From: Ferruginibacter lapsinanis
GTDB taxonomy: Bacteria; Bacteroidota; Bacteroidia; Chitinophagales; Chitinophagaceae
NCBI RefSeq assembly: GCF_020783315.1
Contig: NZ_CP086063.1
Span: forward strand, 2,654,501 to 2,718,500
Reading direction: 5' to 3'
Length of the DNA: 64,000 bases
Part shown: positions 4,176 to 55,150 of the stretch, one piece after another
Numbering within the stretch: the stretch's first letter is position 1
Layout of the letters: the number at the start of each line of letters is the position of its first letter
The notes under the pieces: generated by a model
Databases searched by the model: none
The model's input: only the letters and a program-made list of their open reading frames with translations
What the model was told of the DNA's origin: nothing
Program-made: the position numbers and the translations under genes

Positions 4176-4259
4176 GCCCGGGTGGCGAAATTGGTAGACG
4201 CACTGCCTTCAGGTGGCAGCGTTCGAAAGGATGTGCTGGTTCGAATCCAGTCCCGGGCA
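4176..4259 (+). tRNA. tRNA-Leu, anticodon CAG
   Basis: A class II tRNA cloverleaf can be folded. The acceptor stem GCCCGGG/CCCGGGC is followed by discriminator A at 4259. The D arm contains TTGGTAGACGC. The anticodon stem CTGCC/GGCAG encloses loop TTCAGGT, giving anticodon CAG for CUG. A long variable arm runs CGTTCGAAAGGATG, and the T arm CTGG-TTCGAAT-CCAG is standard. The CCA end is not encoded. The long variable arm and CAG anticodon identify leucine. Confidence 0.96.
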
Positions 4260-4272
4260 CAAAACTGGATGT

Positions 4273-4306: not shown

Positions 4307-4420
4307 TTTTATTTTTTTTCGGAATATTAAAAAATAAAAGATTTTTTCTCCCAGCGAGGTTTCACTTTGTTCTCTTCAATATACTATTCTTTCTGTGCTC
4401 ACCCGTCCGCCTAAATAATA

Positions 4421-4602
4421 ATACAATGTAGAATTACCAATGTTGATTTTACAGTTTGAAAATCCCGAGCGTAGTCTCGGGAAGTACAAAAGTTAAATCA
4501 GGGAACCATCCGACAAACGTGCCGTAATCGTTTGTCGGGCTCTTTTTTGTTTCTTTTTGGAGAAGTTGTAAATCCCGATTATTTCGGGGCAAAAAAGAAA
4601 AA
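4421..4602. repeat. Structured repeat, copy 1 of 2
   Basis: An imperfect direct repeat also found at 6111-6290. Shared core: ATGTAGAATT, CAGTTTGAAAATCCCGAGCG through TCTCGGGAAGTA and AATCAGGGAAC. It can form three hairpins: TCCCGAG/CTCGGGA (4463-4469 with 4476-4482), CCGACAAACG/CGTTTGTCGG (4510-4519 with 4529-4538) and CCCGA/TCGGG (near 4573-4587). The second stem is followed by a T run and could act as a terminator. In copy 2 this stem has a different sequence but still pairs perfectly. Together the copies bracket the tandem array and the A/C-rich gene between them. Confidence 0.75.
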
Positions 4603-4731
4603 TAGCAAATACTGCAGCAAGAAACATACTGAAAAGAGTTTTAATTCTCTTACAGAACCCTGCCCTGCAACCATTCCCCATCAATTCCCGTCTATCTAAA
4701 ATAAACAATTAATAACCAACAGTCTATAACC

Positions 4732-5088
4732 AACTATTTCAAAGAAATGATAAACTATTTAAAAGAAATAAGCAACTACTAACGGTAAATAACAAACTAT
4801 TCAAAAGAAACGATTAACTACAAGCGAGAAATGACCAACTATTCAAAAGAAATGATAAACTATTAAGAAGAAATGACCAACTGTTCAAAAGAAATGATAA
4901 ACTATCAAGAAGAAATAACCAACTGCTCAAAAGAAATGATAAACTATCAAGAAGAAATAACAAACTGTTCAAAAGAAACGATCAACTATAATCGAGAAAT
5001 GCCCAACTATAATAAAGAAATGGTGAACTACGCCAAAGAAATAACCAACTCCTTCAAAGAAAACCCCAACTATTCCAACGCAATCAAA
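4732..5088 (+). repeat. 21-bp tandem array, 17 units in perfect register
   Basis: Seventeen units begin with AAC at exact 21-base steps (4732, 4753, 4774 ... 5068) with no insertions or deletions. A typical unit is AACTATTCAAAAGAAATGAT plus one base. Read in the frame of the AAC codon, a unit encodes the heptad N-(Y/C)-(S/Q/N)-(K/E)-E-(M/I)-x. Units 3 and 7 carry in-frame stops (TAA at 4780, 4786 and 4864), so only the last ten units belong to an open frame. Confidence 0.9.
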
Positions 5089-5091
5089 TAA
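4873..5091 (+). CDS. Heptad-repeat peptide, about 72 residues
   Basis: An open frame of 72 codons made entirely of 7-residue repeats of the type NYQEEIT / NCSKEMI. Charge and hydrophobic spacing (Y/C at position 2, M/I at 6) could give a short amphipathic coiled coil. It has no signal peptide. The ATG used lies inside a repeat unit, directly after an in-frame stop in unit 7, so the gene may be the surviving 3' part of a longer repeat protein. Its stop is 12 bases from the ATG of the next gene, which suggests co-transcription. It may instead be a non-coding array that happens to keep a frame; the absence of stops through ten units favours coding. Confidence 0.45.
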   Translation: MTNCSKEMINYQEEITNCSKEMINYQEEITNCSKETINYNREMPNYNKEMVNYAKEITNSFKENPNYSNAIK

Positions 5092-5103
5092 AAAACTAAG
5101 AAA

Positions 5104-6015
5104 ATGAATGCAAAACAAGAAGCAAAACTAAACATGCTCAGAGCAGTAGAAACACATCTCAACGATAACAGCAGCATTGTCGCCACAATACCCGCATTCC
5201 AGGCATCAGTTCAGGTGTTAAGCACAAAAATTCAGGCCATTATCGATACTGTCCAAAACGAAGTTGTAATAACAACAGGCATCGCAGCAGATAAGACCGC
5301 TGCCAAAAAAGAACTCAGCACCGAAGCCGCCGCAATAGCCGGTATCATCGCCGCCTACGCAGCCGCCATCGGCAACAATGAATTATTACAATCAGTAAAC
5401 ATTACCTACAGCACATTACTCAAAACAAAAGACGACCTCTTAGCCCCACGCTCACAAAATATTCATGCCGCCGCACAAAATAACATCGCAGCATTAGCAC
5501 CTTACGGCATCACACAAATGCAGATCGATCATTTACAACAAACAATAAACAACTATCAGTCAAAAGTTCCCAACACAAGAAACGCAACCGCACAAAAAAA
5601 GACATACATCGCCAATTTAAAAATGCAATTACAAGAAGCCTCCGCATTACTCACCGATCAGGTAGACAAAATAATACTAGCCTTCAGATCCACCCATCCC
5701 GATTTTGTCACAACTTACATTGCCAATAGGGTCATCATCGATCCACCTACAGCACACACCCAGATAAAAGGCACTATCACCAATTCTCAAACTACAAAGC
5801 CCATCGCCGGCGCAGCCATTCAGGTCATCGGTCGTTCAACCACCGACATATCCGATGCCGAAGGCAACTACACCCTAAAACCTCTAAAAAGCGGACACTA
5901 TTCCATCATCATCACCAAAGCAGGCTACCAAACCCAAACCCTCAACCTCATCAAAGTAAAACTCGGCCAAACACTCACCCTCAATATTTCCATGCTTCTA
6001 TCAACAAATAATTAA
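5104..6015 (+). CDS. Helical protein with C-terminal CarboxypepD-regulatory-like domain
   Basis: A 303-residue protein without an obvious signal peptide. Residues 1-210 look helical and Ala/Asn/Gln-rich, with segments likely to form coiled coils. Residues about 218-300 match the carboxypeptidase-regulatory-like (CNA-B-like, transthyretin-type) beta sandwich: IKGTITN, then PIAGAAIQVIG, the turn TDISDAEGNYTLKPLKSGHY and a YQTQTLNL strand. This module is common in Bacteroidota surface and TonB-linked proteins. Codon use is unusual: C-ending codons and an A+C-rich coding strand contrast with T/A-ending codons in neighbours, suggesting transfer. It follows the heptad-repeat frame by 12 bases and sits between two structured repeats. 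Similar proteins are known only as hypothetical. Confidence 0.75.
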   Translation: MNAKQEAKLNMLRAVETHLNDNSSIVATIPAFQASVQVLSTKIQAIIDTVQNEVVITTGIAADKTAAKKELSTEAAAIAGIIAAYAAAIGNNELLQSVNITYSTLLKTKDDLLAPRSQNIHAAAQNNIAALAPYGITQMQIDHLQQTINNYQSKVPNTRNATAQKKTYIANLKMQLQEASALLTDQVDKIILAFRSTHPDFVTTYIANRVIIDPPTAHTQIKGTITNSQTTKPIAGAAIQVIGRSTTDISDAEGNYTLKPLKSGHYSIIITKAGYQTQTLNLIKVKLGQTLTLNISMLLSTNN

Positions 6016-6110
6016 AGCTGTCAGCCTGACAGTAAAGTAAAGAGTGGTATTTTTTCACATCAATAAATCAGCACATATCAAACAAACAACTATTTCGAGT
6101 CAAATCATAA

Positions 6111-6290
6111 CATAATGTAGAATTCCAAATGTCCAGTTTACAGTTTGAAAATCCCGAGCGTAGTCTCGGGAAGTATAAAAGCTTAATCAGGGAACTCACC
6201 AGAAAAGCGGATGTAATGCTTTTCTGGCGGCTTTGGCGCCTGTCCCGATTATTTTGGGAGTTACTTTTTTTTCGCAAAAAAAGTAAGAAT
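6111..6290. repeat. Structured repeat, copy 2 of 2
   Basis: Second copy of the repeat at 4421-4602, same orientation. Stems are TCCCGAG/CTCGGGA (6152-6158 with 6165-6171), CCAGAAAAGC/GCTTTTCTGG (6199-6208 with 6218-6227), CCCGA/TTGGG (near 6244-6258) and TTACTTTTTTT/AAAAAAAGTAA (6261-6287). The flanks of the second stem, AATCAGGGAAC before and TGTAAT in its loop, match copy 1, while both arms differ and still pair. An ORF across it is not credible as a gene. Confidence 0.75.
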
Positions 6291-6554
6291 AATACTTCTT
6301 CCGTTGTCGGTGTTTCGTTTAATTTTCAGGAAGCCCCTAGGGGCCGTTGCCTGGTTTCCAACCAGCACTAAAATAGTATAGCTACGCCTCCGGCACAAAA
6401 TAACCTGGTACCATCCGTTTACGAAATCGATGCAACTTCCATTAACTATGCAAGATGTGAATTATGCAACTTTTTATTGAAATGATGTAACAATCGCTAA
6501 GCATCTTCAATCTACATTCGCATTGGTTTTCGTAAGGTTAATAAAAATTTAATC

Positions 6555-54722: not shown

Positions 54723-54856
54723 AAGTTATTTCTTTTTACATCGATCAATTATGTGTGAAATCCTTGCCTGTTAACACTTTTAAAACTTGTAAACAATTTG
54801 TGAAAAACATTATCGAATTGTTGCCGTCATCAGGTGTAATATTGCACTGTTGTTGA

Positions 54857-55035
54857 GGTTCTTAGTTCTATTTCCAATTCATTAGTAGTAACAAGATTAA
54901 AAGGGAATCCTGTTCAATTCAGGAGCTATCCCCGTAGCTGTAAGTCTTAAAGATTTTTGCACCTCAAAGCCACTTTCCGCCGTCAGGCGGATGGGAAGGC
55001 AGCAAAAACAGGACGAGCCAGAAGACCTGCCTTTA
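54857..55035 (+). promoter_or_regulatory. Cobalamin (B12) riboswitch upstream of nrdBA
   Basis: The cobalamin aptamer hallmarks occur in order: AAGGGAATCC, TTCAATTCAGGAGC, CCCCGTAGCTGTAAG, GCCAC, GGGAAGGC, and GACGAGCCAGAAGACCTGCC at 55012-55031 (the B12-box region). Inside, CCGCC-GTCA-GGCGG forms a local hairpin. It lies 116 bases before the nrdB ATG. Further downstream, CGGCGGAAAAGT (55063-55074) is nearly complementary to ACTTTCCGCCG (54972-54982), a candidate switching helix. Binding of adenosyl- or methylcobalamin presumably lowers expression. Confidence 0.93.
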
Positions 55036-55150
55036 ACAATGACATAACAAAAACTATACTTTCGGCGGAAAAGTAGCGGTATAATAAAGTAGACGATTTT
55101 GCTCTTCTTTTTTGCACCTTATTTGTGTCGACGGTAATCAAAAAATAAAT

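Follow-up and report, generated by a model that had tools for sequence, protein, structure and literature searches.

A dispersed intergenic element of Chitinophagaceae whose fold appears to be conserved

Two direct repeats, copies A and B (Table 1), in a 64,000-nt stretch of the Ferruginibacter lapsinanis genome (hereafter the window) are probably members of a non-autonomous, dispersed, intergenic family of elements of Chitinophagaceae, whose fold would be under selection and which would spread in trans. There is good support for a selected fold in a dispersed element that is probably mobile. Without inserts the element is about 127-135 nt long, and comprises a conserved 5′ part, a hairpin (P1) and a 3′ module made up of a short helix (S1), a T-tract (L1) and a second hairpin (P2). 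The initial annotation had reported two direct copies; this observation is correct and its extent is larger than first described, with A and B sharing 80% identity across 121 nt free of gaps (4413-4533 vs 6102-6222). It had also noted a middle stem whose arms differ on both sides yet pair perfectly, as is the case at P1 of A and B, and that the copies enclose a 21-bp array and an A/C-rich gene, which coordinates and composition bear out. The flanks are indeed shared, but 27 nt of them (TTTGAAAATCCCGAGCGTAGTCTCGGG) make up an optional hairpin insert, which 6 of 20 aligned copies carry, and the covarying S1 and P2 downstream of P1 had gone unnoticed. A tRNA-Leu(CAG) lies at 4176-4260, upstream of copy A.

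Table 1. Features of copies A and B and of the segment between them (window coordinates).
Feature	Position	Strand	Remarks
Copy A of the dispersed element	4421..4602	+	Conserved 5′ part, P1, S1/L1/P2 module
Copy A, optional 27-nt hairpin insert	4455..4481	+	
Copy A, hairpin P1	4510..4538	+	Arms 4510-4519 / 4529-4538, loop 4520-4528; family covariation
Copy A, pseudoknot helix S1 (predicted)	4540..4562	+	CTC 4540-4542 with GAG 4560-4562; family covariation
Copy A, T-tract L1	4543-4549	+	Directly 3′ of the S1 5′ strand
Copy A, hairpin P2	4550..4600	+	4550-4559 with 4590-4600; T5 vs A6, one A unpaired
Copy A, P2-loop hairpin insert	4566-4589	+	24 nt
21-bp tandem array between A and B	4690..5090	+	Outside the element
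A+C-rich gene between A and B	5104..6015	+	303 aa, C-terminal CarboxypepD_reg domain; outside the element
Copy B of the dispersed element	6111..6290	+	
Copy B, optional 27-nt hairpin insert	6144..6170	+	Identical in kind to that of copy A
Copy B, hairpin P1	6199..6227	+	Arms 6199-6208 / 6218-6227
Copy B, 3′ module	6228..6286	+	S1, interrupted L1, P2
Copy B, S1	6228-6230 / 6272-6274	+	CGG opposite TCG, one G.T pair
Copy B, hairpin insert breaking L1	6235-6260	+	
Copy B, P2	6261-6272 / 6276-6286	+	

Copies in the host genome and its relatives

A blastn search with copy A returned 26 matching pieces at about 19 places in the host's single 3.46-Mb contig. A model (R1) built from 20 copies aligned with MAFFT (19 distinct rows) gave 30 matches in the same genome at E<=1e-3, including five units in tandem at 3319055-3319913 of the contig, plus one at E=6.8. 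Because of these genome-wide matches, a chance pairing of two repeats is excluded. At E<=0.01, R1 matched 20 of 59 relatives' genomes, host included. Within the genus Ferruginibacter these were 19 of 36 genomes (again with the host), weakly in G002, G005, G020 and G032, and outside it a single weak match (E=0.0016) was found among 23 genomes. The search of host and relatives that the initial annotation had proposed yielded a family and, as described below, covariation.

The family reaches beyond the genus. An exact pattern was matched by 48 stretches, which come from records named Ferruginibacter, Segetibacter, Paracnuella, Terrimonas and Chitinophagaceae, as well as from records labelled Chitinophagales, Sphingobacteriales or just Bacteroidetes/Bacteroidota. 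At E<=0.01 a 127-nt model (R2) matched at least 108 of the 396 genomes searched in the order, and at least 26 of 395 genomes matched at E<=1e-3 in a scan of the phylum; in both scans the best 8 candidates per genome were scored, so that copy numbers are lower bounds. Five genomes searched more fully held 16, 5, 12, 13 and 9 matches at E<=0.01. Among the order genomes no R2 match outside Chitinophagaceae (f1) reached 1e-9, the best being 1.8e-9, and weak matches there may therefore be chance or the 3′ module alone; in the phylum scan the best match outside the family was 2.6e-7. Strong full-length matches were thus confined to Chitinophagaceae in these searches. Viral contigs searched with the exact pattern contained no element match, nor did phages and plasmids searched by blastn with one query each.

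Rfam at gathering score reported just a tRNA and a cobalamin riboswitch in the window, and at a permissive threshold gave nothing above sub-threshold matches in 4400-6310 and five loci. The riboswitch (RF00174, 98.7 bits) lies at 54839-55048 on the + strand. A full-text literature search, by title and start of abstract and with most subscription papers and preprints outside its scope, found no paper on this element. The element is widespread in Chitinophagaceae, with its 3′ module also elsewhere in Bacteroidota, yet neither an Rfam nor a literature description was found.

Helices that stay paired while their letters change

The arms of P1 vary between copies and stay paired around a loop resembling GGGCTGTAATC. 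In the 20-copy alignment 98.9% of P1 cells were paired, 7 of 10 pairs had changed on both sides and 0 on one side, and the covariation score was reached by 0 of 500 shuffles. S1 is a helix of 3-6 bp between the linker that follows P1 and the loop of P2, giving a predicted pseudoknot topology. When P1, S1 and P2 were taken together in 13 selected, gap-free sequences, 99.4% of cells were paired; two-sided changes affected 12 of 24 pairs and one-sided changes 0. The covariation score of this set was again reached by 0 of 500 shuffles, and four of five measures beat all 500; the fifth, which counts further pair types, was reached by 73 of 500. Variability fell on 2 of 3 pairs in S1, where the columns omit TTGAC-type copies because of their different register, and on 2 of 11 in P2. 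Broader alignments were paired at 98.8% (A8), 97.3% (A9) and 97.8% (A4), values that are biased towards the drawn structure by construction since these alignments were fitted to models; A8 contained 19 one-sided cells vs 384 two-sided.

S1 was also tested free of any model. Pairing that starts at the first loop base was found in 36 of 45 distinct linker/loop combinations, whereas 5000 shuffles gave a mean of 4.9 and a maximum of 13. When each loop kind was represented once, 11 of 18 pair (shuffled mean 1.0, maximum 5), and in a smaller test on 20 combinations the mean helix length was 3.35, where the shuffled maximum was 2.9. The first two of these tests draw on 79 distinct modules from 102 of the 167 listed copies that could be parsed, a procedure that under-represents copies with inserts or P2 mismatches. 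Kinds of S1 include CTC/GAG, CGG/CCG, GTC/GAC, GCC/GGC, TCGC/GCGA, TTGAC/GTCAA, TTGAA/TTCAA and ATGG/CCAT.

Nested folding of L121 and L286 reproduced the drawn P1 and P2. For copy A, whose P2 loop carries an insert, the minimum-energy nested fold (4513-4604) lacked the drawn P2, with the T-tract region paired otherwise. Folding energies of three stretches had z values of -2.3, -4.9 and -4.3. Since the letters vary mostly in matched sets with the predicted fold unchanged, what is kept seems to be the fold itself. Both the selection for structure and the family of structured RNA (or ssDNA) suggested initially are thus strongly supported, by P1, S1 and P2 all staying paired across the family while their letters change.

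A protein-coding element was considered and rejected: read by eye, some copies are open through P1 and P2, but copies of the CAGGGAAC type and of the CATAGCT type differ by one in their frame, and in-frame stops occur in two of the optional inserts.

The T-tract and a predicted triple helix

L1 is a T-tract between S1 and P2, the length of which tracks that of the A-tract in P2 (rho 0.51, n=49, with some rows misread as purine tracts of 2; 94 copies fitted). Parallel U.A-U and C+.G-C triples predict that a C in L1 should lie opposite a G of the purine strand. Modules were collected with a finder that did not require a match between L1 and P2. This yielded 101 distinct modules at 207 places in 1.49 Mb of sequence (overlapping loci included), and 0 modules in 285 kb of shuffled sequence. 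In seven of the 101, L1 contains a C and the purine tract has a G in its interior: L278 and L286 (G421), L271 (G305), L252 and L231 (G218), L272 (G293) and L318 (G735). They span five genomes, and L318 is a module from outside the family that follows the same code. Six of the seven match everywhere in parallel (8/8, 8/8, 8/8, 7/7, 6/6, 6/6), for example TTTTCTTT with AAAAGAAA, TTCTTT with AAGAAA and TTTTCTT with AAAAGAA. The match in L231 is 6/6 after a one-base offset and 5/7 without it. A C alone occurs in 3 of 101 modules: two of them run antisense to an element, and in the third, L245, this C faces the G after the A-tract (7/7). A G alone occurs in 4 of 101, as the first base at the junction, and the remaining 87 of 101 have neither. 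Fisher's test on 7/3/4/87 gives p=2e-6, which is not the p of independent cases as the modules are related. Two further loci that came from separate parsing, L173 (7448) and L257 (1277, with an offset), also fit the code.

From this we strongly infer that the 3′ module, as RNA or ssDNA, would fold into an H-type pseudoknot in which the T-tract occupies the P2 major groove and forms a parallel triple helix. An antiparallel alternative for L1, by strand exchange, needs a slip of just one base; when the slip was allowed, the antiparallel check held for nearly all interrupted cases and did not discriminate. L1 is interrupted in copy B and in copies of G018, and the 5′ arm of P2 is broken by an insert in L132 and in two units of the 3319-kb array. 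Neither the triplex nor P2 is therefore strictly required in every copy. Base-triple covariation is seldom visible from sequence alone and is seen here in modules of five genomes, so that a predicted natural triple helix becomes open to direct test.

Telomerase RNAs and ENE-type folds combine an S1 helix, a U-rich L1 and an S2 helix with an A-rich 3′ strand into parallel U.A-U triples. The topology of the telomerase pseudoknot, as generally known, equals that of the 3′ module, for which covariation suggests the triplex; unlike those RNAs, the present element is bacterial, intergenic and multi-copy.

The S1/T-tract/P2 module was also found in other Bacteroidota. Places with the module alone, where no P1 part was recognisable by eye, occur in at least G508, G768, G726, G735, G702, G575 and G816, with S1 pairs that include CTTGAT/ATCAAG and AGTC/GACT; in several G508 and G768 copies the linker GTGAATAT leaves S1 incomplete. 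Repeats from outside Chitinophagaceae end in the same T-tract pseudoknot module at L301 and L311 (G768) and at L304-L309 (G508). It is conceivable, though rather doubtful, that Bacteroidota possess counterparts of SINEs, short and dispersed elements in which unrelated 5′ parts would share a common 3′ triple-helix pseudoknot tag read by a trans-acting copying enzyme, on this reading a reverse transcriptase or an ssDNA transposase. The fold would then be a recognition ticket, so that stems would be free to change wholesale provided they changed together.

Placement, mobility and competing explanations

None of 56 copies checked lay inside a long ORF, and 11 were overlapped by ORFs of 81-106 aa. 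The flanking ORFs were opposite/opposite to the element in 17 cases, same/same in 16, same/opposite in 15 and opposite/same in 8, counting array members apart and entering as opposite 4 rows with a missing neighbour. Relative to the upstream ORF, 31 copies were on the same strand and 24 on the opposite one, with 1 having no upstream ORF, and 8 of 56 lay between divergent ORFs. From listed coordinates, 40 close pairs comprised 27 tandem, 11 head-to-head and 2 tail-to-tail arrangements. No recurrent neighbour gene was detected, the largest cluster holding 4 of 409 neighbour ORFs, and no association with a transposase or integrase emerged from these ORFs.

Two species of the same genus have an orthologous site (L258/L284) at which the sequence on either side and the 5′ half of the element can be aligned; P1, S1 and P2 each have different letters in the two and are paired in both. 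A second such site (L132/L193) has kept the element with an identical P1, and L132 carries an insert; some copies would persist vertically. No orthologous empty site was found among the loci compared, including the AlgH/tRNA-Leu locus, where ten loci of the nearest AlgH relatives contained neither the element nor the tRNA nor matches to three window genes. The best reading of these sequences is a non-autonomous repeat whose fold, as RNA or ssDNA, would be under selection. Such an element may spread by means of a trans-acting factor that reads mainly the fold and less the sequence, which would explain why copies are found in every orientation to genes, as tandem arrays and as head-to-head pairs, as well as the wholly different 3′ module at one orthologous site. 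If one factor recognises the module, this would be a mobile system defined by fold, not sequence. The closeness of A and B would then reflect local clustering of copies and not the bounding of a cassette.

The Y1 transposase was considered as the mover and judged unlikely, since the presence of Y1_Tnp does not track the copies: it occurs in 48 of 59 genomes, several copy-free genomes carry it, and it is absent from G013, a genome of 98% completeness with 7 copies. This bears on a DNA-level repeat of REP/BIME type, in which the P1 palindrome would be kept by ssDNA recognition or template-switch correction with no RNA role, an explanation we regard as unlikely. It would account for the rarity of one-sided changes in A8, where an RNA helix would be expected to show more G-U intermediates, and the head-to-head pairs resemble the arrangement known as BIME/REPIN, a name also used in PMC6006769. 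Correction of a palindrome, however, leaves unexplained both S1, which is not one hairpin, and the matching of L1 to P2, and Y1_Tnp is the REP enzyme. As described in PMC6006769, REPs are hairpins of 21-65 nt with GT[AG]G at the foot and a cognate Y1 transposase, TnpA-REP (RAYT). The element shares with them a hairpin, an intergenic position and tandem and inverted clusters, but is about twice as long or more (127-135 nt), and no GT[AG]G was seen by eye at the P1 foot of the printed copies. An ordinary REP, the simpler alternative offered initially, is close in describing a dispersed, intergenic, mobile-looking repeat, but the defining length and foot of REPs do not fit. A transcription terminator or mRNA 3′-end stabiliser serving the neighbouring genes is quite improbable. 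A hairpin followed by a T-tract and the folding energies given above would suit it, but orientation to the upstream ORF is neutral, copies occur between divergent ORFs, 3-5 nt of linker separate stem and T-tract, and S1 and the C-for-G matching are left unexplained. A terminator scan did not include P1 of A or B; as its rule allows loops of 3-8 and the P1 loop is 9, the scan is no test of this reading.

The proposal that A and B are cassette boundaries or recombination sites, importing the array and the gene as one unit, is largely refuted and very improbable. The enclosed gene is compositionally odd (A+C 0.679 vs 0.456-0.579 for 12 other ORFs picked from 0.3-16.5 kb) and patchy, with relatives (E<=1e-12) in at least 22 of the 298 genomes searched in the order (best seven candidates per genome scored). 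However, among 29 loci with gene relatives, in which at most 1.5 kb of flank (less in some) was searched, the element matched strongly in one (L231, E=2.8e-9) and weakly in another (L218, E=0.0013), the others having matches worse than 0.04 or none. These loci speak against the boundary idea; of the initial interpretation the structured family is supported and the recombination site is not. The array has an identity of 0.63 at period 21 and 0.74 at period 42, and one of its frames reads as 7-residue repeats with stops. A clear 21/42-bp array precedes the gene in 7 of the 29 loci (L217, L228-L231, L235, L242), with identities of 0.55-0.91, above all 100 shuffles and other periods; an eighth is marginal. 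Array and strong element occur together in L231 only. Gene and array therefore co-occur mostly without the element, pointing to an association of their own. Other close copy pairs enclose different ORFs or none, and such repeats can evidently bracket a gene by chance, a warning for annotation. Gene and array look like a conserved pair.

An ordinary MITE of an IS1-family element is likewise highly improbable. Inverted IS1-like ends are clear in six host-genome copies and resemble those of a 3.8-kb element coding for DDE_Tnp_IS1, but are absent from the other copies examined, A and B among them; the limitation to six suggests that the core was captured by a MITE. General terminal inverted repeats were not apparent, 32 of 72 copies scoring >=8 vs 18-24 in six shuffles. 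The 3.8-kb element itself (G000:C1:2726646-2730427; L058:3146-6930) carries, besides its IS1-like ends and the DDE_Tnp_IS1 gene, several passenger ORFs, and shows what looks like an 8-bp target duplication, AAATCCTG.

ERIC and MITE-like repeats are roughly 130 nt long, intergenic, dispersed and hairpin-forming, with optional internal inserts. The present element resembles them in each of these respects, but lacks general terminal inverted repeats, has strong matches in Chitinophagaceae only and possesses a pseudoknot helix. ERIC is named among intergenic repeats in PMC3733652. The nearest frame for the element is the class of mobile/repeat sequence candidates (MRSC), for which association with a transposase or integrase is, according to PMC11109978, frequent and not required. 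As described there, likeness extends to several copies per genome, covariation-supported structure, inconsistent orientation to neighbouring genes and an undecided RNA or DNA form. MRSC-65-2 of the same source is a UYCCGG repeat, from which the present element differs in its predicted H-type pseudoknot, its triplex-like covariation and the lack of an adjacent transposase.

Hairpin inserts interrupt the 5′ region, L1 and the loops of P1 and P2; as they also occur within the P2 5′ arm, stems are not wholly spared. Small TCCCGATTATTTCGGGA-like hairpins are inserted at several places of the element (e.g. 4566-4589 and 6235-6260) and look like a separate REP-like family. Lastly, in G333 (L283, L293, L297), G375 (L259) and G421 (L278, L296) two subtypes arranged head-to-head form a recurring composite of about 235-280 bp, which looks to have been amplified as a unit.
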